Origin: Spirochaetes bacterium ADurb.BinA120
Lineage (GTDB): Bacteria; Spirochaetota; UBA4802; UBA5368
DNA length: 58,138 bases
Assembly: GCA_002069125.1 (NCBI GenBank)
Contig: MVZN01000014.1
Location: 1-58,138, forward strand
Reading direction: 5' to 3'
Under the pieces are notes generated by a model, which saw nothing but the letters and a program-made list of their open reading frames with translations, made no database searches and was not told where the DNA came from. The position numbers and the translations under genes are program-made. Shown here piece by piece: positions 28,969 through 58,138 of this stretch (within the stretch, counting starts at the first letter, position 1; each line of letters starts with the position of its first letter).

Positions 28969-30035
28969 ATGAATAAAAAAAAAAACTTTTTAATCGCGGC
29001 GCTGATATGCCTTGCCATATCTCTTTTCGGACCGTTAACCACTAAGGCTTCAGCTCTGCCGGATCTTTCCACGCCGTTTACCCAGATATTCCCTCAAATT
29101 AAAATAAATAATTTATTCGACTCGAACGTCCCTATCCACCAGGGATTTTTATACACTTTCCAGTTCGCCAAAAACGATCTGGAGGCCGCGCTTACGGATT
29201 TATTGAGAAAAAAAGGGCGCGCGCTCAACATCGGAGAAGTAAACGACCTTCGCGCCCAGGTTATACGCGTAAATTCCGTCAAATGGATAATTTTGAATTT
29301 CGACGGCACAAAGGTAACGCTTCCCGACCAGATGCCCGAACTTGTAACAAATCAGGGCGCAGCAGGCGATATCGACACTTCTACGATGCGCTACGTTTTC
29401 GATACTCCCACCGACCCCATGGACGAATCGATGATTTTATGCGTCGTAGATTACGAATGGAACGCCTTTTTCGGCGCCGCGCCCCTGGGCGGCTGGCCCA
29501 AAACTCAGGAAGCGTGGGGAAAATTCGCTTTCACTATCGTCGACAGCGAGCCTCCGCATAACGCTCAGATATCGCCGAAATCAATTTATTCGACCTGCGG
29601 CGACAAAATCTCGGCTTTTAACGATATAATAAAAAAAGAAAATCTCGCCTCGAAATATCCGGCGAACGCCGATGACATAGTTATTACGGTAATCGACGAC
29701 AACCCTTTTGGAATAATAGACCACTCAAAGCTAAAGCATAATTTAAAAAACGTCGACGGATACGTCATGGTCGAAACATATACCGAAAAATACAGGCAAT
29801 ACGATTATAATAATCCGCCGAAGCAACTTTTGGCGGACCCTTTCGAATTAGATTCCACCATTTACGAATATCTCGACGATACCGCGCCTAATAACGGCAA
29901 ATTTTCATACCTCGGCCCGTTTCAAATTTCAAAAATACCCGGCGTTTCGATAAAAAACGTAAAACTGGTCAATAAAGTCAACGCAAAAGACAACGTAGCA
30001 TACGTGATAAGCGTCCCGCTGGCGGGCCTCGAAGA
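28969..30035 (+). CDS. Secreted protein, 3' end cut by the junction
   Basis: A signal peptide (MNKKKNFLIAALICLAISLF...) with a small-residue site near residue 28 is followed by about 325 residues of mostly beta-type sequence without a recognised domain. It contains two segments with VTLP/DPMDES and NNPPKQ patterns. The apparent frame continues to 30438 but becomes Arg/Pro/Ala-rich and GC-rich after about 30030, which is foreign DNA read out of context. The native C-terminus is lost. It is the last gene of the pseudopilin block, so it may be a pilus-associated or exported component. The true end is not visible; 30035 is approximate. Confidence 0.6.
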
Positions 30036-30045
30036 CGGCTCGGGG
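30010..30045. other. Junction between two unrelated genomes (probable chimera)
   Basis: Base composition, codon use, gene orientation and taxonomic signal change at this point. To the left are moderate-GC plus-strand genes of a pilus-bearing bacterium. To the right are very GC-rich, planctomycete-like genes. One gene on each side is cut: the secreted protein on the plus strand and a gene on the minus strand that overlaps the HIT stop. No integrase, tRNA, IS or direct repeat is visible. The exact base cannot be set by eye. Confidence 0.85.
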
Positions 30046-30069
30046 CGGAATGTCGCCCGGCTCGCTCAT
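30019..30069 (-). pseudogene. Start of a gene truncated at the junction
   Basis: On the minus strand an ATG at 30069-30067 overlaps the HIT stop (ATGA). About 17 plausible residues follow (beginning MSEPGDIPPRAVFEAR) before the reading frame enters the other genome. ATGA overlap supports a real co-translated gene downstream of the HIT gene, of which only the first codons remain. Family unknown. Confidence 0.45.
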
Positions 30070-30635
30070 GGTCTGGGCCCGGCCTGCCCGCCGGTGCGGG
30101 CCAGCAGCAGGCCCAGATCGTCGGCGGCGCGGCGCATGGCGGCGAAGGTCTCCTGGATGGACTGGGGGATGACACGGACCTGGCCGAGGACGGCCATGAA
30201 GTTCGTATCGCCCGCCCAGCGGGGCACCACGTGGATGTGCAGGTGTCCGGGCAGGCCCGCGCCGGCGCATCGCCCGACGTTGAGCCCGATGTTGTACCCG
30301 TGGGCCTTGAGGGCCCGGTCCATGACCGCCTGGAGGTCGCGGACAGCCTGCATCATTTCCACCAGCGTGGCCGTCTCCAACTCGCCGAGCTGCCCCACGT
30401 GGTCCAGCGGGGCGACCATGGCATGCCCGCCGGTGTAGGGGAAGCGGTTGAGCACCACGAGGCTGCGTTCCAGCCGGGTCAGGACCAGGTTGTGCGGGTC
30501 CTGGTCGACTGGCGCCTCGCGGTAGCGGCAGAGGAAACAACCCTCCTCCTGGCCTCCCAGCGAATCGATGTACTCCATCCGCCAGGGGGCCCAGAGGTTG
30601 GTGTTGCGCTCGGCGCTTCGGTTGTCGGCGTCCAT
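30066..30635 (-). CDS. HIT-family nucleotide hydrolase/phosphorylase
   Basis: This 189-residue protein has the histidine triad HLHIHV (His131, His133, His135), where the middle residue set forms the AMP-binding active site. The N-terminal LWAPWRMEYI motif and a Cys33/Cys36 pair match the AP4A phosphorylase-like branch. Substrates in this branch are diadenosine polyphosphates or adenylated nucleotides. It lies downstream of an NHL-type lipoprotein, with 7 nt between, on the minus strand. The next gene starts inside its stop codon but is cut by the genome junction. Confidence 0.9.
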   Translation of the reverse strand: MDADNRSAERNTNLWAPWRMEYIDSLGGQEEGCFLCRYREAPVDQDPHNLVLTRLERSLVVLNRFPYTGGHAMVAPLDHVGQLGELETATLVEMMQAVRDLQAVMDRALKAHGYNIGLNVGRCAGAGLPGHLHIHVVPRWAGDTNFMAVLGQVRVIPQSIQETFAAMRRAADDLGLLLARTGGQAGPRP

Positions 30636-40218: not shown

Positions 40219-42207
40219 TCACTCCATGCCGAGTTCCCTAAGCTGCTTGGGCTTGATCTTCGGGTTTGGGTGTTCCGGGTGCAGGCCGAGCATGCGGTCG
40301 GTTCCGGGGCGCAAGGGGCCCCAATTGAGGGCGTAGGGGTGTTCGCGGCAGAGGGTCTCGATCGCCTGCCAGTTCTTGCGGACCTGGGCGGCGATCGCGT
40401 CGTCCGGCTTGAGCCAGTAGCGCAGCATGAGCGTCGCGTTCTGGGTCTGCAGGCGCGTGTAGGCCAGCCCGGCGCGGACGAACTCAACGCGGCGGCGGTA
40501 GATTTCCGCCCCGGCTGCGGCGGCCTTGGCGGCCTGGTCCAGGTGGGCCTGGGCCTGGGCCAGTCGCTGGGGCGCGTACAGGCGAGGCAGACTGAACAGG
40601 CCGGCCTCGTGCCCGTACTGGGCGACATAGGCGGATCGGGCCTGTTCCCACAGCTCGAAGTATGTGCGCACCGCGTCGGCGGCCGGTCCGAAGCCGCGGC
40701 GGTAGTAGTCGGCCAGCAGGGCGGCGGGGTCCTGCCGCGGGTCCCAAGCGAGCTGGGCCATCACGTAGTATTGCGGCCCCTGGGTGGCCCAGTGCTCCCA
40801 CACGCTGTCGACGAAGATGCCGACGCACCCGGAGGCGGCGACGTGCTGAAGGTCCTGGGCGGTCTGCGAGATCGTCAGGTCCGGTAGGCCCTGCTGCCAG
40901 CCGCCCGGGCTGCCCGTGTTGGGGCGCCACATCATCCGGCAGCCGAGTCTGGCCCAGGCGTCGAACTGCTGGCGGTAGGTCTGCCCCGTCGTCGAGCCGC
41001 GGTCCACCAGGCCCGTCCGCCCCAGGAAGTTGGCCACGCTGGAGATGATGACGTTGTCGGCAGGGCGGGCGGCGACCGGGGCGGGGCGCGAGTGCCCGTA
41101 GCTGTTCATCAGGACGCGGTAGTCTTTGCCGGGGTATCGCTGCTTCAGCAGCCCTGCCAGGCGGTTGGCGAAGGTGACGTCGCGGTCGCTCAGGGCGGGC
41201 CGCTCGGCCCGATGCCCCCGCCAGATGAACAGCCGCTTCTCGCCGTCGGGGTGGTCCCAGGCGGAGCACTTTTCGCACACGCAGTGCCCGCTGGCCCAGC
41301 CGTCGTTGGGCGAGGCGTTGAAGACGGTACGGGTGGGGTCTTTGGCGAGCTGGTCCTCGACGCCCTTGAGCCACAACTCCCACACCTTGGGATTGGACTG
41401 GCAGAGCTTGGCCGTGCGGGCGCTGGCGAAGCCGGTCCGCGTGCCATCGGGCTGGAGGGCGAAGATCTCCGGATGCGTCTTGCTGTAGCGGTCCCACCAG
41501 TCGGCGAACCCGTGCCCGCCGTCCAGGTCCAGCGAGTGCAGTTGCAGCCGCTGGAGCCTCGCCCAGTCGTGGGCCCGCCCGTAGCCCTTGTTGCCCAGCG
41601 ACGAGAAGTGCAGCAGCCCGCCCCGGCTGCGGATCTGCGGGTGATAGCGATACTCGAACGGAGCCAGACGGATCGTCGGTCGCTTCGGGACGTCCTCGCC
41701 CAACTCGTCCGGCCAGAGCCAGCGGACCTCCAGCTTGTCCTGAAGGAAGGTGTAGACGGCGTTGATCGTGCCGTACTCCTGCTGCTTGCCCTTGACTATC
41801 CCGTCGCGAGCCTGCACGTCCATGTGTTGCGGGTCCCATCGGTCGCGCCCGGCGATGACGAGGTGGCGACCGTCGCACGCGAGCAGGATCTCCTCGGGGT
41901 GCTGAAAAGCGAGGTCGAGCCTGGGCAGCAGCTTTCGCACCGCCGGCTGAGCGCCCACCCAGACCGCTCGCGGCGGGATCGACTTCGGCTCGCCCTCGAT
42001 CAGTTCCGGCCGGGCGCCGCTGATCTTCTCGATATAGTCGATCAACTCCCCGGCTGCGGCGCGCGTCCGGGGCGGAGCGTTCTTGGACACGACGACGGGC
42101 GCTGGATTCGAGCCATTCTCCACCAGGACGAACTCGCCGGCCTGACCTGGTCCGGCCAGGCAGGCCCAGACCCAGGCGCCGATGAGGAATAATCGCGGGG
42201 TGCTCAC
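40219..42207 (-). CDS. DUF4838 family secreted protein (alpha-glucuronidase-like N-terminus)
   Basis: This 662-residue protein has a signal peptide (about 1-23). The N-terminal part (about 30-130) resembles the glycoside-hydrolase-associated domain of alpha-glucuronidases: A-x-G-E-L-I-D-Y-I-E followed by VWVGAQPAV. Residues about 180-480 form the DUF4838 domain, a TIM-barrel-like module with a Cys-rich motif (HCVCEKC) and a HxxRPAP segment. Activity is unknown for the family. Its start overlaps the stop of the upstream DUF1570 gene by four bases (ATGA), so they are co-translated. Confidence 0.82.
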   Translation of the reverse strand: MSTPRLFLIGAWVWACLAGPGQAGEFVLVENGSNPAPVVVSKNAPPRTRAAAGELIDYIEKISGARPELIEGEPKSIPPRAVWVGAQPAVRKLLPRLDLAFQHPEEILLACDGRHLVIAGRDRWDPQHMDVQARDGIVKGKQQEYGTINAVYTFLQDKLEVRWLWPDELGEDVPKRPTIRLAPFEYRYHPQIRSRGGLLHFSSLGNKGYGRAHDWARLQRLQLHSLDLDGGHGFADWWDRYSKTHPEIFALQPDGTRTGFASARTAKLCQSNPKVWELWLKGVEDQLAKDPTRTVFNASPNDGWASGHCVCEKCSAWDHPDGEKRLFIWRGHRAERPALSDRDVTFANRLAGLLKQRYPGKDYRVLMNSYGHSRPAPVAARPADNVIISSVANFLGRTGLVDRGSTTGQTYRQQFDAWARLGCRMMWRPNTGSPGGWQQGLPDLTISQTAQDLQHVAASGCVGIFVDSVWEHWATQGPQYYVMAQLAWDPRQDPAALLADYYRRGFGPAADAVRTYFELWEQARSAYVAQYGHEAGLFSLPRLYAPQRLAQAQAHLDQAAKAAAAGAEIYRRRVEFVRAGLAYTRLQTQNATLMLRYWLKPDDAIAAQVRKNWQAIETLCREHPYALNWGPLRPGTDRMLGLHPEHPNPKIKPKQLRELGME

Positions 42208-43394
42208 CGTGATGGCTCCGTAGCATTCTGTCGCGGTTTGGCCGGCGTCTTGGTCGGCGGCTTGATGTCCACGTCGGTCTTGATCTTTCCTTTGGTGACC
42301 GAGAACGAACCTCTCAGGACCGTGCCGTCGGTCAGTTCGAGGACCAGGGCGGGGGTCTGGCGCTTGGTGTCGAGCGTCCAGGGCGAGTGGGCGGCGGCCT
42401 TCTTGAGCGTGCGCTCCAGGAGGCTGGGCGGCAGCCAGGTGTCGGGCTTGTTCTCGATCCGCCCGGCCCGGGCGGCGGCGAGAAAGTCATCGGCGGTCTG
42501 GAACTCAAGGCCTTGGAGGTGCGCGCGGGCGAGGTAACTGGTGAGCGTGGCGACCATGGCCTTTCGCCACAGAAGCCGGCCCGTGCCGGCGTCCTGCGCC
42601 TGCCACCATTCGTCGTAGCGCTTGTGCAGGATGGGGAGGTTGGGCAGGTTGCCCGTCCAGGCGGTCTTCCAGTCGCGGCCTCGCCCCAGCGAGTCGATGA
42701 ACGCCGAGAAGCCCGGCTGAAAGCGCCCTTCCATGCCGTGCACCAGGAAGTGGACCATGGACCAGGCCTGGTCATAGTGGAGGGTGTCGCGCCGGTTCCT
42801 CCAGTCGGTGTTGCTGAGGGTAAGCATCTTGTCGAATGACAGGATCTGCCCGGTGCGGAGGTAGAACTTCACGCGGGCGACCTTGTCGGGGGGCATCCAG
42901 CCGGTGACAAAGCCGTCGCCGGTCCACTGGGCCACGCCGAAGTACTCGGCCAGGCCCTCGTTGAGCCACAGCGGCACGTCCTCGCCGATGACCTGGTGGA
43001 CGAACTGGTGGAAGCCCTCGTGCTGGATGATGTACCACAGCAGGTCGCCTCGGCTGACCGCCAGCACCAGGAGTTTACCGTCCTTGCCCTGCCCGACGTA
43101 CATGCCGGGCGAGCCGGGCCTGCCTCCGGCGGCCTGGTAGTCCTGCGGGCGGGCGAAGAGATAAAAGTCGAACTTCTTGCGAATGGAGCCGGCGAAGCTC
43201 TTGGTCCGCTGGTGGTATTCCTCGGCCATGGCCGTCACTCGGGCGGCCGCCTCGCGGGCCAGGTCCTCATCCAGGTCGCTGCGGATGACGTAGTAGGGGG
43301 TGGGGTAGACGCGCAGCTCGCCGCTCCCCGCGGCGCCGGCGAGCGAGGCGGACAGGATGAGGGCGGTCGCGACCCGGAGGAGGCGGCAGGTCAT
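42204..43394 (-). CDS. DUF1570-like secreted metalloprotease (gluzincin)
   Basis: This 396-residue protein has a signal peptide (about 1-22) and a zinc site HEGFH (His125, Glu126, His129) followed by NEGLAEY (Glu146/Glu150), typical of the DUF1570/peptidase MA-like gluzincin fold. The protein is longer than the core peptidase by a C-terminal helical part (about 215-360) and a Lys/Thr/Pro-rich tail. It has no obvious inhibitor neighbour. Its stop overlaps the start of the DUF4838 gene, making an operon of two secreted proteins. The target is unknown. Confidence 0.82.
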   Translation of the reverse strand: MTCRLLRVATALILSASLAGAAGSGELRVYPTPYYVIRSDLDEDLAREAAARVTAMAEEYHQRTKSFAGSIRKKFDFYLFARPQDYQAAGGRPGSPGMYVGQGKDGKLLVLAVSRGDLLWYIIQHEGFHQFVHQVIGEDVPLWLNEGLAEYFGVAQWTGDGFVTGWMPPDKVARVKFYLRTGQILSFDKMLTLSNTDWRNRRDTLHYDQAWSMVHFLVHGMEGRFQPGFSAFIDSLGRGRDWKTAWTGNLPNLPILHKRYDEWWQAQDAGTGRLLWRKAMVATLTSYLARAHLQGLEFQTADDFLAAARAGRIENKPDTWLPPSLLERTLKKAAAHSPWTLDTKRQTPALVLELTDGTVLRGSFSVTKGKIKTDVDIKPPTKTPAKPRQNATEPSR

Positions 43395-43556
43395 CGTGCG
43401 CTCCCGGCGGGCCGGTCCGCCCGCCTGGGCGCCAGTCTAGCAAAAAAAACCGTGCATCGGGAAGCGATTACGGTATCTTTCTGTCAGCCGCGGAGGGGCA
43501 CCGGCCGCAAGGACGCGGGCCGGCCGACCGCGGGCTGGCTGCAGACAGGAGCGAGC

Positions 43557-44390
43557 ATGAAGTCCATTCACGTTGTCGAAGACCTTCTCCCGCTGGCCTG
43601 GGAGCGGGCGGTGATCGCCTGCTGGGAGCAGGGCGAGAGCTTCCCCACCGAGTACGACCGCCCGGGCGACCCCAACAGCCGGGACGTGACGGCCTTGATC
43701 CACGTGAAGCGGCCCTTCGACGAGCCGCGGATCCACCGCAACTTCCCCGGCGGGCTGGAAGACCTGGAGAAGTACCGCAGCGAGGTGCTCTACGGGGTGC
43801 ACGATCATTGGATCGACCCGGCGGCGGGCAAGTGGGAGTACACCTACCACGAGCGCCTGTTCGAGTATCGCGTGGGCGAGCGGGTGTTCGACCAGATCGA
43901 CGCGGTGGTCCGCAAGCTGAAGGCCGTGCCGCACACGCGCCGGGCCCAGGCGGTGACCTGGCAGGTGTGGAACGATCTGGAGATCGACGACCCGGCCTGC
44001 CTGCAGCGGATGTGGTTTCGCATCAGCGGGGGCAAGCTGCACCTGAACGTGCACTTCCGCTCGAACGACGCGTTCAAGGCCGCGTTCATGAACATCTACG
44101 CCTTCACCGAGTTGCAGCGGGAGGTGGCGGCGAAGGTGGGCGTCGAGCCGGGCGAGTACATCCACCTGGCCGACTCGTTCCACATCTACGGGAGCTACTT
44201 CGACGAGTTCGAGGGGTTCCTTGCGAGCGTCCGCTCTCGAAGTTTCGAAGAGCGGGTCTATACCGAAGCGTTCGCCCGCGAGATCTTCGTCGAAGGATGC
44301 GACATGTTGCTCGCGGAGCCGGACATGCCCGAATCCAAGAAGCAACTGGTCCGCCGGCGGCGCGAGGTGCTGCTGGGCCCGGGGGCATGA
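43557..44390 (+). CDS. Thymidylate synthase family protein (divergent)
   Basis: This 277-residue protein aligns with ThyA at its key residues with a constant offset of two from E. coli: Cys148 (C146), Arg168 (R166), Asp171 (D169), Asn179 (N177), His209 (H207) and Tyr211 (Y209). The upstream phosphate-binding Arg pair is Arg128/Arg129. ThyA methylates dUMP to dTMP using methylene-tetrahydrofolate. The PPCH motif is PACL, and the C-terminus lacks the usual Pro-Val-Ala-Ile end, so it may act on another nucleotide. The ATG has ACAGGAG upstream. No dihydrofolate reductase is adjacent. Confidence 0.82.
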   Translation: MKSIHVVEDLLPLAWERAVIACWEQGESFPTEYDRPGDPNSRDVTALIHVKRPFDEPRIHRNFPGGLEDLEKYRSEVLYGVHDHWIDPAAGKWEYTYHERLFEYRVGERVFDQIDAVVRKLKAVPHTRRAQAVTWQVWNDLEIDDPACLQRMWFRISGGKLHLNVHFRSNDAFKAAFMNIYAFTELQREVAAKVGVEPGEYIHLADSFHIYGSYFDEFEGFLASVRSRSFEERVYTEAFAREIFVEGCDMLLAEPDMPESKKQLVRRRREVLLGPGA

Positions 44391-50720: not shown

Positions 50721-50990
50721 CCCGGCCGCGGCTGTCCGCTCCTGAGTGAACCCGTTCTCCCTGCGCCTGCGGGACAGACTCTCCCGGCGATCTTCCTTTG
50801 GCCCCCACACCCGTACTCGTGCAGGAATTTGCGCGAAATGTGCGTTTGGGGCTTGCTGGACGCCGGTCGGTCGGTGAAGAATACGGCATAATCATATACG
50901 CGGGCCGGTAGGGCCGGGCAGGGTGAAGGTGGCTCTGCTGCCATGCCGATCATTTCGTTTTCGGCGGCCCGGTGGCCAAAGGAGCCAGCC
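50721..50990. other. 270-base spacer before the giant gene
   Basis: No ORF or RNA gene is recognised. It must hold the promoter of the giant gene, but no convincing -35/-10 pair was found; a CATAAT at 50887 lacks a matching -35. Confidence 0.4.
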
Positions 50991-53900
50991 ATGAAGCCAG
51001 ACGCGCCGATCGCCGGCAGCTTCCGTCTCGTGTCGTTCCAGGAGCTGGAGCCGCGACTGTTATTGGCTACGTATTACGCCGTAACGGACCTGGGCACGCT
51101 GGGAGGCGACTACTCTCGGGCACTGGGTCTCAACGACGACGGCCTGGTGATCGGCTATGCCGCGCTGGCCTCGGGGGACGGCCGGGCGTTCGTGTGGGAA
51201 AGCGGCTCGATGACCGCCCTGCCCACCGCCACGTACGGCGACACCAGCGCCGCCTACGACATCAGCGGCGAGGGCCGGATCGTCGGGCGGATGGACCACG
51301 ACGCCGCCGGGGGCAACCGCGGGTTCCTGTACAACTCCTCGCTTCAGGAGATTCCCCCGGTGCTGGCGGGCTACACGTCCCTGGCCCGCGGAGTCAACGA
51401 CAGCGGGCTGGTCGTCGGCTACACCACCGACTCGTCGGGCAACTCCTACCCGTTCATCTGGGACGCCGTCCACGGCTCGCTGCTGCTGGAACTGGACAAG
51501 GGGACCGCCCTGGCGGTCAACGAGGTGGGCACCATCGCGGGCAAGCTCCAGGCGGCCTCGGGCTACTATCACCCCACGATCTGGAAGTGGAACGTTCCCA
51601 CCGACCTCACACCCAGCCTGTCGGGGCACGGGGAGGCCCTGGGCGTCAACGACTACGACGTGGCCGTGGGGTGGCATCACACCGGCGTGGGCCAGCGGTA
51701 CACCGCGTTCCGATGGAGCGCCCAAGGGGGCATGACGGACCTGGGCACGCTCGACGACGACATCCGCTCCACCGCCTGGGCGGTCAACAACGACGGACAG
51801 ATCGTGGGCTCGTCGGCCAGCCTGTCCGAGACGCGGGCGTTCGTGTACGACGCCGGGCAGATGTACGACCTGAACGGCCTGCTGGGGCCCGACTCGCCCT
51901 GGTGGCTGGAATGCGCCTACGACATCAACGACGAAGGGCAGATTGTCGGCGGGGGGTACGTCTCGGGCTCGGCCAACGAGCACGCGTTCCTGCTCACGCC
52001 CGATCACCAGGGCCCGTCGGCGGTGCTGACCGCGGCGAACGTCACCATCGCCGGGGGCGACAGCCACACGTTCAGCGTCACCTACAGCGACGCGGTGGCG
52101 GTGGACGTCTCCACGCTGGACGACATCGACATCCGCGTCACGGGCCCGGGCGGCTTCAACAGGGCCACCGTGCTGGTGGGCGTGGACGTGGGCAGCGACG
52201 GCAAGGTCCGCACGGCGACCTACCGCGTGACCGCCCCCGGCGGGAGCTGGGACGCGGGCGACAACGGCCTCTACAGCGTCATGCTGGCGGCGGGGGAGGT
52301 CCGCGACATCGCAGGCAACGGCGTGGCCGGGGGCAGCCTGGGCACGTTCGCCGTCTCGCTGGCCCCCACGCCCACCGCGGAACTCGCCCTGCCGCCTGAC
52401 GGGTCGAGCCTTCCGCTGGCCGTCGTCAACGCGGGATCGGGCGGCAAGGGACTCATCGAGGTCACCTACTTCGACCACAGCGGCGCCGGGTTGAACGCCG
52501 CCAGCATCACCGACGCCGCCGCCGAGTTCACCCTCACCGGGGCCGGCGCCGCGGGCGCGACCGCCAACACCGCCCCCGTCGCCATCGGAGGCAACACCTA
52601 TCGCTACACCCTAAGCGGGCCGCTGGGCGTCGGGCCCGTCACGGTGAACTTCCAGGCCGGCACGTGGGCCGACAACACCGGCGCCCTCAACGCCGCCCAA
52701 GCCCAGTCGTTCACGGTGATCCTGTCCGACAGCGACGGGCCCCGCGTCGTCACCCAGTCGCCCACCGCGGCCGCGGGGAGCCTCTCCTACGTCGACCTGA
52801 CGTTCAACGAGCTGATCAAGGCCGACACGTTCACCCCCGCCGACGTGTCCATCGTGAACCCGTCCGCCTCGCCCGTGGCCGCCAGTTCCGTCACCCGCCT
52901 CCAGGGCAGCACGTACCGCATCGCGTTCGCCTCCCAGAGCGAGGTGGGGGTCTACGCCCTCCGCGTCGGGCCCGCCATCCAGGACCTGTCGTCCAACGCC
53001 ATGAACCAGGACGCCGACGGCACGAACGGTGAGGCCGTCCAGGACGTCTTCGCCGGGCAGTTCGAGCTGACCGCGAGCGACTTGGCCGTCATCGAACACC
53101 TCCCGGCCGGGACGGAGCAAGGGCAGGTCGAGCACGTGGACGTGACCTTCACGCAGGTGCTCGATCCGACCACGTTCACGCCCGCCGACGTGAGCCTGTA
53201 CGGCCCGGCCGGCCGGGTCGACATCATCGACGTGAGCCTCGAGGGCCTCACGACGTGGCGGATCGACTTCGACCCGCAGCGACAGGCGGGGACGTACGCG
53301 CTGGTCATCGGCCCGGCCATCTGCAACCAGGCCGGCGAGTGGATGAACCAGGACGGCGACCGTTTCGCCGGCGAGGCGGGCGAGGACGTCTACACGGGCG
53401 ATTTTTCCATCGCCCGCTCCACGCTTCAGGTCGTCTCTCACCAGCCCACCGGCTGGCAGTCCTCGGGCGTGGACCACGTCGACGTGACGTTCAGCGAGGC
53501 GATCTCGGCGGCCAGCTTCACCGTCGACGACGTGACGATCACCGGCCCGGGCGGCGCGGTGTCCGCCACGTCCATCCAGCACGCGGGCGGCGAGACCTAC
53601 CGCGTCCTCTTCCCCCAGCAGACGGCCGACGGGATCTACAACGTGTGCGTCGGTCCGGACATCCAGACCCCGCTGGGCGAAGGGATGAACCAGGACCTGG
53701 ACGCCTTGCCCGGCGAGGCGGGCGACGACGCGTACGCGGCGGCATTCGGAATCTCCACGCTGTCGCTGGACTACACGATGGTCGACGTGGGCGTCCTGCC
53801 GGGCGGCACGTGGAGCTACGCGTACGGCCTGAACAACCAGGGGCAGGTGGTGGGCGTGTCGGGAACGGCCAGCGGGGCTCACGCGTTCCTCTGGCAGGAC

Positions 53901-56900
53901 GATCAACTCATCGACCTGGGCACGGCAGGGGGGGATTATTCCGCCGCCTACGCCATCAACGACGCGGGGCAGATCTTCGGCCTCTCGCGCGACGCGGGCG
54001 GGACCGACCACGCCGTGATCTGGAACGCCGGCCCCGGCTACACGGACCTGGGTGCGGTGTCGATCTCGCTGGGGTCCATCAACGCCGGCGGCGACATCGT
54101 GGCCGGGGCGTACTTCGGCCTGAGCCTGACGCCCTTTTCGACGGTCTTCCCCGGCGGGACGGACCAGTGGCACAACGTCAACGGGCTGGACCTGGGCGAC
54201 GGCGGGACGATCGTGGGCTACGCCGTACCCCCCGGCAGCGTGCAGAACGAGGTCGCCGTCACCATCAGCGGCACGTCGATCCAGCAGCTTGCGGGCCTGG
54301 GAGGTACGCGCAGCCGGGCCCAGGGCTCCAGTGCGTCGGGGGCGGTCATCGCGGGCTACGCGGGCACGCCGACCAGCGACGCCCACGCCTGCGTGTGGAC
54401 CGACCCGCCGGACGACACCCGCAGCTACGCCAACGACGCCAACGACGCCGGCTGGGCCGTCGGCAAGCGACAGGGCGGGTCGCTGGGCTACTACGCCTTC
54501 GTCTGGGACGGCCTGGAGATGAAGACCCTCTTCAACGACACGTTCTACCGCAGCGACGCGGGATGGGGCGCGTGGTACACCTTCATCGAGGCCATGGACG
54601 TCAACAACCTGGGCGAGGTGGTCGGCACGGGGCAGGTCCGCTCGGGCAGCCAGACGCACGGCTTCTACCTGCGCCGGGCGGTGGCTCCTCAGCCGACGGC
54701 GGAACTGACCGACCCCGCCGACAACGGGAGCATTCTCCGCGCCACGCTGAACCAGCGGGGCTGGGTCACGGTGACCTTCCTCGACGACGCGGGCGTGGGC
54801 ATCGACAAGTCCACCATCACCGACGCGGGCGCGGAGTTCCGCTTCACGGGCCCCGCCGCCGGGGGGGTTCAGCTTGCCGGCGCGCCGGAGCTGGTCAGCG
54901 AGTCGTCAGCCGGCGTGACCTACCGCTACCGCTTCACGGGTTCGTTCGCTCCGGGCCTGGTGGACGTGGAGTTCATCGACGGCGCCTGGGCCGACACGTC
55001 CGGCTCGCCCGGTCAGGGCAGCGTGGACAGCTTCACCGTCGGCCTGGACCCGGACCAGTGGGACCTCCAGGCGCCCTACGACAACACCGACGCGACGGCC
55101 ACGGTCATTGTCACCGACGGCACGGTCCAGACGCACAACCTCCACACCGCCGCCGACGTGGACTGGGTGACCTTCACACTGAACACCAGTTGCGGCGTGG
55201 TGATGCAGGCGGCTACCTCCGGCCTGATCCGCATGACGCTCTACCAGCGGACAGGCCCCAGTACGCTCCGCGACCTGGGCTCGTGCGTCGTGACGGCCGA
55301 CACGAGCTATCCCAGGATCGCCCGTCTCCTGGATGCCGGCACGTACCTGTTGAAGATCGAGGAGTTCGGCAACAACGTGAGCGTGCCGTCCTACGACCTG
55401 TCGGTGACGGCGAGAAGCGCTCGAAATCACGCGATCCTGTTCGCCGGCGGCGTAGACGCGATGAACAACCACAGCCGCTACTACGACCGGGTCAAGGGCC
55501 TCTATGAAACGCTGGTAAACGTTTGCCACCTCGACCCGGCGAATATCTACATCCTCTATGCCGACGGGACCGCCGGCGGGGTGGACCGCTCCGACGGGCA
55601 GAACTCCGACATGAGCTTCGCCACCCTGCTGGGCACCACCGTCCTGCCCGGCACCCAGGAGTCGCTCATCTCCACCATTACCCTTCTGGCCGACCCGTCC
55701 AAACCCAACTGGGTCGGGCCGTTGGATCACTTCCTCTTCTGGTCGTTCGACCACGGCGACGGAGACGAGGATCCGACAGCCCACGTCGAGGCGGAACTCT
55801 GCGGCTGGGGCTCGGACATCCCCGGCACAACCGTGGCCGTTCAACTCAACCGCATCCACGCCGCCCATTCCACCTACATCCACGGGCAGTGCTTTTCCGG
55901 GGGCATCCTGGACTTCCAGACGCCGCTGGACGCGGGCGAGTTCGGCGCCGCGGCCTGCCGGTACTACGAGGTGAGCTACGGCGACGGCTTCGTGTGGGGG
56001 TTCGAGACGGCGCTGGCCTGGGGCTTCAACACCACGCACTGGGCGTTCCGATTTGCCCACAACCTGGACCCCCATGCGTGGCTGTACAGGGAGCATCCCT
56101 GGATGATCGGCCCGGACTTCCCCATCTTCCTGGACATGGCCAACGTCGCCCCGGTGATCCACAACGTCGCCCCGATCGTGCCGCAGGCCGGCGCGGGCGG
56201 CTCCAACGCCGTCATCACCTACGACATGCTCAAGGCGGCGGCGCGGGTGGAGGACGGCGACGGCGACGCGGTAAGCTTCGTCATCGAGTCCGTCACCACC
56301 GGCTGGCTGACCAAGGGCGGCTTGCCCGTGATCGGCGGGCGCACGACGCTGAACTTCGGCGAGAGCCTGGAGTGGGTCCCGCCGCCCGGTGCGTCGGGCG
56401 ACGTCGAGGCCTTCACCGTCACCGCCTTCGACGGCCTGGACGATTCGCCGGCGCCGGCAGGCGTGACCGTGCGCCTCGACGCACAGGCCGGAGCCCCCGA
56501 CGCGGTCGCCGACACCATCACCATCGACGAGGACGACGCCGACGTGCCCATCAACGTCCTGGCCAACGACAGCGGCCTGGGGACGCTCAGCATCGTCGCG
56601 CTGGGCACGCCGCTGCGGGGCCTGGCCGAGATCGTCGGAACGCAGATCCGCTACACCCCCGCGGGCAACTACTACGGCGAAGACATCTTCTCCTACGTCG
56701 TCACCGACGGCTCGGGCCTCACGGACATGGCGTCCGTCCGCGTCATCGTCGAGCCGGTCGAGGATGCACCGGAGGCCACCGGCGACTCGGTCACCATCGA
56801 CAACGACGGGACCGCCCACCTGATCGACGTGCTCTACAACGATCGGGAGTACGACGGCCAGCCCCTGACGCTGACGGCGGTGGGGCCGGCCCAGCGCGGG

Positions 56901-58138
56901 ACGGCCGTCCTGGCCGGCTCGCAGGTCCAGTACACCCCGCCGGACGAATGGGCGGGCCTGGACAGCTTCACCTACACCATCTCCGACGGACAAGGCAACA
57001 CCGACACCGCGCAGGTGCTGGTGACGGTGACGGGCGACTTCGGCACGACGGTGCTGGTCGGCACGGGCGGGGCTGGGTCGTTGACGTTCACCGACGCCGA
57101 CGGCACGAAGGTGACGGTGCGGCTGGTTGGCGCGTCGGCCAACGTGGTGCTGGGCGGCGCGGGCATTACGGTAGCCCAGGACGCTCGCGGGGCGATGGTG
57201 ACCGGGCAGGCTACGGCCTCGGGCCAGGACGTGAAGATCGCCGACATCCAGCTCCTGACCGGCGGGGCGACGGCCATGCTGATGATCACCGGCTACGGCG
57301 GCGACCGGCGGATCACGGTCGACAGGATCAGCGGCAGCGTCCTGCTGAGCATGCTCAACGCCCGCTCGGCCGACCTCACCGGCGAGGGCATCGCGCTGAC
57401 CGGCGACGGGGCGATCCGCACCATCTACGTGGGCGACCTCCTCAACGGGGCCGGCATCGCCGCCCCCGGCGCGGTCACAGGGTCGGTCACCGTGATGGCC
57501 GGCCAGATCGGCGCCAACAGCGACATGACCTTCGGCTCGCCGCTGGGCCTGCTGTCGATCCCCGGCTGGGCGGGCCCGGGCACGCTGACGGCCCCGTCGG
57601 CGGGCACGATCATGTCCCGCGGAGACTTCGGCGCCGACGTGAACCTGACAGGCGCCGGCGCCACCGGCAACAGCGTGAACGTGTTCTACTGCCTGGGCAG
57701 CCTCAACGGGGCCGATCTGGCCTTCGCCGGCGCCGCCGGCACGATCATGGGCAACGCCTGGACCGTGGGCAGCCTGACGGCCCTGCGGGCGGCGACGGTG
57801 ATGATCCGCGGCAACATGGGCGCCAACGTCACGATGACCGGGCAGAACACGGCCGGCACGAGCCTGAACATGCTCTACGCGATGGGCAACGTGGTTGGAT
57901 CGGTGCTCAACCTGGCCGGCGCGGCGGGCGTGATCTACGCCGGCTCGTGGACGGGCGGGTCGATCCAGGCGCTGTACATCGGCTCGTTGCTGACCACCCG
58001 CGGGGCGTTCAGCGCGGACGTGAACCTGACGGGCGCCAACGCGGCCGGCAACTCGCTGAACCTGCTGTCGTCGGCGGGGACGGTGAGTTCGGCCTCGATC
58101 GTGCTGGCGGGCGGGGCGGGGTCGATCATCGCCCCGGC
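50991..58138 (+). CDS. Giant mosaic extracellular protein with clan CD protease domain (3' truncated)
   Basis: The reading frame starts at an ATG with AGGAG and stays open to the window end (2,382 residues and counting). Residues about 19-25 are LEPRLLL, the planctomycete LEPR-XLL motif. A HAF-repeat module (about 30-340; LGTLGG and IVG patterns) is followed by several Ig-like domains (about 340-920), a second HAF module (about 927-1235), an Ig-like and a PPC-like domain (about 1350-1475), then a caspase/legumain-like domain (about 1478-1690) with His1588 (DHGDG) and Cys1634 (GQCFSGG). Cadherin-like tandem repeats (about 1837-2030) and a Gly/Ala-rich solenoid repeat end the visible part. It is predicted to be secreted; the C-terminal anchor is outside the window. 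Confidence 0.9.
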   Translation, partial: MKPDAPIAGSFRLVSFQELEPRLLLATYYAVTDLGTLGGDYSRALGLNDDGLVIGYAALASGDGRAFVWESGSMTALPTATYGDTSAAYDISGEGRIVGRMDHDAAGGNRGFLYNSSLQEIPPVLAGYTSLARGVNDSGLVVGYTTDSSGNSYPFIWDAVHGSLLLELDKGTALAVNEVGTIAGKLQAASGYYHPTIWKWNVPTDLTPSLSGHGEALGVNDYDVAVGWHHTGVGQRYTAFRWSAQGGMTDLGTLDDDIRSTAWAVNNDGQIVGSSASLSETRAFVYDAGQMYDLNGLLGPDSPWWLECAYDINDEGQIVGGGYVSGSANEHAFLLTPDHQGPSAVLTAANVTIAGGDSHTFSVTYSDAVAVDVSTLDDIDIRVTGPGGFNRATVLVGVDVGSDGKVRTATYRVTAPGGSWDAGDNGLYSVMLAAGEVRDIAGNGVAGGSLGTFAVSLAPTPTAELALPPDGSSLPLAVVNAGSGGKGLIEVTYFDHSGAGLNAASITDAAAEFTLTGAGAAGATANTAPVAIGGNTYRYTLSGPLGVGPVTVNFQAGTWADNTGALNAAQAQSFTVILSDSDGPRVVTQSPTAAAGSLSYVDLTFNELIKADTFTPADVSIVNPSASPVAASSVTRLQGSTYRIAFASQSEVGVYALRVGPAIQDLSSNAMNQDADGTNGEAVQDVFAGQFELTASDLAVIEHLPAGTEQGQVEHVDVTFTQVLDPTTFTPADVSLYGPAGRVDIIDVSLEGLTTWRIDFDPQRQAGTYALVIGPAICNQAGEWMNQDGDRFAGEAGEDVYTGDFSIARSTLQVVSHQPTGWQSSGVDHVDVTFSEAISAASFTVDDVTITGPGGAVSATSIQHAGGETYRVLFPQQTADGIYNVCVGPDIQTPLGEGMNQDLDALPGEAGDDAYAAAFGISTLSLDYTMVDVGVLPGGTWSYAYGLNNQGQVVGVSGTASGAHAFLWQDDQLIDLGTAGGDYSAAYAINDAGQIFGLSRDAGGTDHAVIWNAGPGYTDLGAVSISLGSINAGGDIVAGAYFGLSLTPFSTVFPGGTDQWHNVNGLDLGDGGTIVGYAVPPGSVQNEVAVTISGTSIQQLAGLGGTRSRAQGSSASGAVIAGYAGTPTSDAHACVWTDPPDDTRSYANDANDAGWAVGKRQGGSLGYYAFVWDGLEMKTLFNDTFYRSDAGWGAWYTFIEAMDVNNLGEVVGTGQVRSGSQTHGFYLRRAVAPQPTAELTDPADNGSILRATLNQRGWVTVTFLDDAGVGIDKSTITDAGAEFRFTGPAAGGVQLAGAPELVSESSAGVTYRYRFTGSFAPGLVDVEFIDGAWADTSGSPGQGSVDSFTVGLDPDQWDLQAPYDNTDATATVIVTDGTVQTHNLHTAADVDWVTFTLNTSCGVVMQAATSGLIRMTLYQRTGPSTLRDLGSCVVTADTSYPRIARLLDAGTYLLKIEEFGNNVSVPSYDLSVTARSARNHAILFAGGVDAMNNHSRYYDRVKGLYETLVNVCHLDPANIYILYADGTAGGVDRSDGQNSDMSFATLLGTTVLPGTQESLISTITLLADPSKPNWVGPLDHFLFWSFDHGDGDEDPTAHVEAELCGWGSDIPGTTVAVQLNRIHAAHSTYIHGQCFSGGILDFQTPLDAGEFGAAACRYYEVSYGDGFVWGFETALAWGFNTTHWAFRFAHNLDPHAWLYREHPWMIGPDFPIFLDMANVAPVIHNVAPIVPQAGAGGSNAVITYDMLKAAARVEDGDGDAVSFVIESVTTGWLTKGGLPVIGGRTTLNFGESLEWVPPPGASGDVEAFTVTAFDGLDDSPAPAGVTVRLDAQAGAPDAVADTITIDEDDADVPINVLANDSGLGTLSIVALGTPLRGLAEIVGTQIRYTPAGNYYGEDIFSYVVTDGSGLTDMASVRVIVEPVEDAPEATGDSVTIDNDGTAHLIDVLYNDREYDGQPLTLTAVGPAQRGTAVLAGSQVQYTPPDEWAGLDSFTYTISDGQGNTDTAQVLVTVTGDFGTTVLVGTGGAGSLTFTDADGTKVTVRLVGASANVVLGGAGITVAQDARGAMVTGQATASGQDVKIADIQLLTGGATAMLMITGYGGDRRITVDRISGSVLLSMLNARSADLTGEGIALTGDGAIRTIYVGDLLNGAGIAAPGAVTGSVTVMAGQIGANSDMTFGSPLGLLSIPGWAGPGTLTAPSAGTIMSRGDFGADVNLTGAGATGNSVNVFYCLGSLNGADLAFAGAAGTIMGNAWTVGSLTALRAATVMIRGNMGANVTMTGQNTAGTSLNMLYAMGNVVGSVLNLAGAAGVIYAGSWTGGSIQALYIGSLLTTRGAFSADVNLTGANAAGNSLNLLSSAGTVSSASIVLAGGAGSIIAP
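57579..58138 (+). repeat. About 64-residue tandem repeat at the end of the giant gene
   Basis: Three units (57579-57770, 57771-57959 and 57960 to the window end) share the pattern RG..GA.V.LTG....GNS.N....G........AG.AG.I. A more degenerate unit precedes them. The repeat is Gly/Ala/Asn/Thr-rich, like a beta-solenoid, and its end is not seen. No known family matched by eye. Confidence 0.75.

Follow-up and report, generated by a model that had tools for sequence, protein, structure and literature searches.

A giant, repeat-rich protein, encoded at the right-hand end of the 58,138-base stretch of DNA analysed here (the window), probably carries, in residues 1478-1710, an exported cysteine peptidase domain of the clan CD (caspase/haemoglobinase) fold, which is rare, belongs to a subfamily outside all Pfam models and is likely active. 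The domain would form a module within its giant carrier, in which His1588, predicted to close strand 3 and followed by Gly, would activate Cys1634 at the end of strand 4, with the cysteine then attacking the peptide bond. It would most likely cut proteins outside the cell or in its own matrix, and possibly its own carrier too. Activity, export, substrate and the role of an acidic loop (e.g. calcium binding) are features that we infer. Clan CD is best known for enzymes of cell death and maturation; if the reading is true, it adds to this clan an exported branch outside the named families, and provides a two-residue test of whether such giant repeat proteins are proteolytically active.

Predicted catalytic motifs and family searches

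The caspase/legumain-like domain was first proposed from the motifs AILFAGG (starting at residue 1481), DHGDG (1587, containing His1588) and GQCFSGG (1632, containing Cys1634), all of which lie exactly where the initial annotation had placed them. His precedes Cys and Gly1589 adjoins His1588, in keeping with the His/Cys dyad with Gly beside the His that is described for clan CD enzymes in PMC4357240. That source gives His-Cys spacings of 42 in caspase-7 and 46 in PmC11, and the spacing in the domain is 46. At E<=10 the domain matches no Pfam family, including PF00656 (Peptidase_C14) and PF01650 (Peptidase_C13), and no NCBIfam peptidase model, and by sequence no solved peptidase in the PDB was matched. 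Furthermore, no relatives were found among plasmids and phages by tblastn, and no close relative among viral contigs.

The giant protein and its flanking repeats

The window is the entire contig MVZN01000014.1, so that the end of the contig truncates the gene and the C-terminus of the protein is missing. A length of more than 2,382 residues had been proposed and holds, as the frame that begins with the ATG at 50991 stays open throughout the remaining bases of the window (2,382 residues), and a further in-frame ATG is located 48 bases upstream (Table 1). The sequence ELEPRLLL near the N-terminus, which follows the LEPR-x-LL pattern of LEPR-XLL proteins, agrees with the designation first given to the protein; no NCBIfam model for LEPR-XLL fired on it. 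The HAF, Ig-like and cadherin-like repeats described as flanking the peptidase domain were likewise recovered with family models, the HAF repeats by TIGR02913 (nine stretches; E 5.3e-46) and the bacterial Ig/cadherin-like repeats by Big_9 (1.4e-31), Cadherin_5 (3.7e-18) and Big_5 (6.2e-6). The PPC-like domain was not confirmed: the beta-rich segment concerned has no Pfam match at E<=10 and no PDB sequence match, its NCBIfam match to FDP_fam (E 0.0075; 16.7 bits) falls below the cut-off of 29, and PPC-like is used here as a label by appearance only.

Table 1. Features of the giant gene and of the contig that carries it (positions in the window)
Feature	Position	Strand	Remarks
Probable chimeric junction	30001..30045	.	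Inside ORF 28969-30438; GC and tetranucleotide step
Whole open frame	50943..58138	+	First ATG 50943; 2,398 residues; runs off contig end
ELEPRLLL, LEPR-XLL-type N-terminal sequence	51042..51065	+	Starts at residue 18
First HAF-repeat block	51375..51938	+	DUF3466 best stretch, residues 129-316
Big_5 Ig-like domain	52728..53009	+	Residues 580-673; Pfam
Second HAF block	53820..53933	+	Best single HAF stretch, residues 944-981
Beta-rich PPC-like segment adjoining the peptidase domain N-terminally	55077..55415	+	Residues 1363-1475; assignment weak
Predicted clan CD caspase/legumain-like peptidase domain	55422..56120	+	Residues 1478-1710
Predicted catalytic His1588	55752..55754	+	In FWSFDHGD
Predicted catalytic Cys1634	55890..55892	+	In QCFSGG
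Big_9/cadherin-like repeat	56763..57026	+	Best of 3 stretches, residues 1925-2012
Glycine-rich C-terminal repeats	57578..58064	+	189-192 bases (63-64 residues)

The LEPR-XLL-type N-terminus, together with the PEP-CTERM signal of a relative from Zoogloea, points to a location at the cell surface or exterior, and the giant protein is probably exported or surface-bound. Many of the domains linked to metacaspases also look extracellular, according to PMC3501461. The architecture is unusual and was not found in the literature on LEPR-XLL and HAF repeats, giant proteins, clan CD, C13 with PEP-CTERM, caspase homologues, or legumain and caspase domains in planctomycetes, a coverage outside which most subscription papers fall; no literature was found in it on LEPR-XLL together with planctomycetes.

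A single close relative in Zoogloea

One scan of a collection with one genome per species (84,980 species) yielded a single relative, a protein encoded on the Zoogloea MAG contig JAKLLM010000260.1 (L004:115-876), which shares 31% identity with the domain, retains FWSFDHGD and QCFSGG unchanged and carries a PEP-CTERM signal (Pfam E 2e-4). Within the 176 aligned columns, identity is found in 14/18 columns located at most four residues from the His or Cys, as opposed to 42/158 elsewhere (Fisher p 3e-5), and on the sequence evidence this conservation of the motifs is not due to chance. Eleven acidic residues are common to the two proteins, eight of which fall between domain positions 52 and 119, close to the His and to the loop that follows strand 2. 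Calcium binding is known in clostripain and some metacaspases, and a calcium site at these acidic loops would be no more than a reasonable guess.

The domain profile finds one copy in the Zoogloea genome, as well as six weak matches which cover the C-terminal columns of the profile only and of which five extend into the PEP-CTERM region. Across the order of this genome, the domain is found in one of 379 genomes, namely the Zoogloea genome itself. The first strand of the relative is either in another frame or lost at the contig edge. The start of the gene (L004:1-141) apparently lies in another frame, and the gene may be frameshifted, a pseudogene or the product of an assembly error.

The Zoogloea protein also bears on the possibility that the domain is a self-processing module, cutting its own giant protein at the adjoining linkers and thereby releasing or maturing the flanking repeat blocks. 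Autoprocessing cysteine peptidase domains occur in some other large secreted proteins, and the domain does sit in one long chain between the PPC-like and the Ig/cadherin-like blocks. Many clan CD enzymes are furthermore self-regulated, as described in PMC4357240. However, neither a cleavage site nor a cofactor site was identified, and the Zoogloea relative shows no giant carrier in its readable piece, suggesting that the family does not need one. We consider self-processing rather unlikely.

Profile-level relationship to Peptidase_C14

A two-row profile (A1) was built from the domain and the Zoogloea protein, and as such rests on one relative. Searched over the 392 genomes of the phylum of the assembly, it matched, besides itself, 15 places at E<=0.01, fourteen of which are ORFs with (S/A)GHG...(C/A)C(F/Y)SGG in caspase-type sequence, while the remaining one resembles, as labelled from its sequence, a 3-dehydroquinate synthase. 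A Pfam scan of four of these ORFs identified all four as Peptidase_C14 proteins (2.7e-17 to 4.4e-20), and by sequence the C14 group of matches is related to solved metacaspases (2.8e-12). When A1 was aligned by hhalign with nine of the fourteen, the His fell on the His and the Cys on the Cys (Prob 95.8; score 63.4), as compared to a maximum score of 25.6 and a maximum Prob of 5.7 among 200 column-permuted controls (199 shuffled, one reversed); this comparison with the Pfam C14 group shows that the domain is homologous to an established family of clan CD. Because the nine were chosen as A1 matches, the Prob is not independent of the A1 search, and with the domain of the giant protein without the Zoogloea relative it is 34. 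The independent part of the evidence is the presence of 14 caspase-type ORFs among 15 matches in unselected genomes.

The fourteen phylum genomes concerned (L006-L013 and L015-L020) harbor ORFs with a C14-type domain and a length of ~500-600 residues. By eye, most of these have a hydrophobic N-terminus, and they may represent an exported caspase family of their own.

Structure models

The comparison of a predicted structure with C13/C14/C25 peptidases had been proposed as a check in the initial annotation. An AlphaFold2 model derived from two rows without caspases failed (pLDDT 32.5), its search returning nothing at E<=0.001 and a metacaspase in first place at E 0.12. A second AlphaFold2 model was made from seven rows, five of which are caspase-like sequences from viral contigs that favor a caspase fold, and it is weak (pLDDT 52; pTM 0.58; TM-scores about 0.4). 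It comprises a strand at 6-13, a helix at 22-38, strands at 46-52 and 105-115 (ending on His115) separated by a helix at 83-94, a helix at 139-146, and strands at 151-161 (Cys161) and 177-182 followed by a helix. This order of strands and helices fits that of the clan CD core described in PMC4357240, albeit in a model of pLDDT 52 with caspase rows in its alignment; in the caspase/haemoglobinase fold, the His and the Cys close strands 3 and 4 of a parallel 2-1-3-4 sheet with three helices. With Foldseek against the PDB, GPI transamidase and metacaspase make up its first seven matches (E<=0.001), and with VIA-align the first 28 rows are clan CD structures, including legumain (Z 8.2-9.3), with unrelated Rossmann-like enzymes close behind (Z 8.1). 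Given its low confidence and the caspase rows, we count the seven-row model as agreement only; the conserved relative, the profile searches and this weak model then all agree with the caspase/legumain-like domain first proposed.

The Rossmann-like folds just below the clan CD matches, and the weakness of the models in general, would also suit a pseudo-peptidase, or a Rossmann-like (flavodoxin- or short-chain-dehydrogenase-like) binding domain in which the His and Cys motifs are coincidental. On the same side, PMC3501461 reports that no more than 64% of the metacaspases of planctomycetes conserve both catalytic residues. The caspase-type character of all but one of the profile matches and the concentration of identity at both motifs argue against this alternative, however, and we regard it as improbable. 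Since the His, Cys and Gly are present and the dyad is conserved in the Zoogloea relative, an active peptidase appears likelier than a dead one.

Comparison with known clan CD systems

With Peptidase_C14 of the bacterial metacaspase/orthocaspase type (e.g. the ORFs L008, L009, L015 and L019), the domain shares profile homology and a paired His and Cys. It differs in lacking a PF00656 match, in having FWSFDHGD in place of YFSGHG, in its giant carrier and in an additional loop rich in Asp that follows strand 2. Legumain and GPI transamidase (C13) are the structures that the weak model matches best and share the order His-Gly then Cys-x-Ser-Gly, whereas PF01650 is matched neither in the domain nor anywhere in the host assembly. 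The likeness to the gingipains (C25) and clostripain (C11), which are secreted clan CD proteases of bacteria, consists of clan CD logic, probable export and a multidomain context (in part PMC4357240), and no sequence relation of these enzymes to the domain is detectable. The Zoogloea PEP-CTERM protein is the only close sequence relative found, with both catalytic motifs identical, and differs in being short and PEP-CTERM sorted.

The profile-level relation to C14 proteins could also be read as indicating an intracellular cell-death caspase (orthocaspase). The LEPR-XLL-type N-terminus and the PEP-CTERM signal of the relative, however, point outward, and no death-associated domain was found in the giant protein with Pfam, making this very improbable. 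More tentatively than for the peptidase assignment itself, we suggest that the domain may belong to a clan CD family of its own, thinly scattered and marked by the signature FWSFDHGD...QCFSGG together with an acidic loop that might bind calcium, which would serve as an outward-facing module on unrelated surface-sorting systems (LEPR-XLL-type giant protein and PEP-CTERM) and have moved between phyla; this broader proposal is possible but doubtful.

Probable chimeric nature of the contig

The contig is probably chimeric at ~30.0 kb. Its GC content is 46% up to this point and 68% thereafter, with an abrupt step within 29990-30060, and the tetranucleotide patterns of the left and right halves correlate at 0.08. 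The end of ORF 28969-30438, past the GC switch, reads antisense through a gene which is presumably of the HIT type, as named from its HLHIH motif. Eighteen other contigs of the assembly were sampled for tetranucleotides, four of which were all N; the 14 readable stretches correlate with the left half at r 0.68-0.87 and with the right half at 0.07-0.27. The assembly's own RibBA, on contig C40, is 95% identical to that of a same-genus genome and 73-82% to those of seven others of the order. By contrast, the right half encodes a RibBA that shares 57-60% identity with each of the nine other RibBA loci compared. The mismatch of both composition and RibBA with the rest of the genome suggests that the right half, including the giant gene, probably derives from another lineage. 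A large transfer, rather than misassembly, could also be the source of the right part, but the genes found there (trpA, trpB-like, ribBA, malic enzyme and thymidylate synthase) are ordinary chromosomal ones. As the contig probably mixes organisms, the assembly under which the giant gene is filed should not be taken as its source. The same chimeric join could be taken to suggest that the giant ORF is itself an artefact assembled from two genes, but GC by codon position is uniform across 51001-58138 without a frame shift, and we consider this scarcely credible.

Within the right half, positions 42204-44390 encode a DUF1570 protein on the minus strand and, on the plus strand, a thymidylate-synthase-like ORF. 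DUF1570 and the LEPR-XLL-type start are presumably associated with planctomycetes, and from these two features a planctomycete origin of the right half is plausible. A protein search recovered one of the 392 genomes of the phylum and the profile one of the 46 genomes of the class, in each case the genome of the window itself; absence from the kin of the assembly was considered as a sign of rarity and dropped, because the right part probably lies outside that lineage.

The left half would be expected to be native to the assembly. Its composition agrees, but its PilB-like gene (T2SSE) is divergent, at about 39-42% identity to relatives over its length and up to 51% over shorter stretches, with another PilB-like/T2SSE copy present on contig C33, and none of the seven other genomes of the family contains a match to the junction ORF. 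Membership of the left half in the assembly is thus also uncertain. Positions 1-30000 encode, in addition to this T2SSE protein, two T2SSF proteins and PilM (type II secretion/type IV pilus-like), HEAT/TPR proteins and a cNMP-binding AAA protein.
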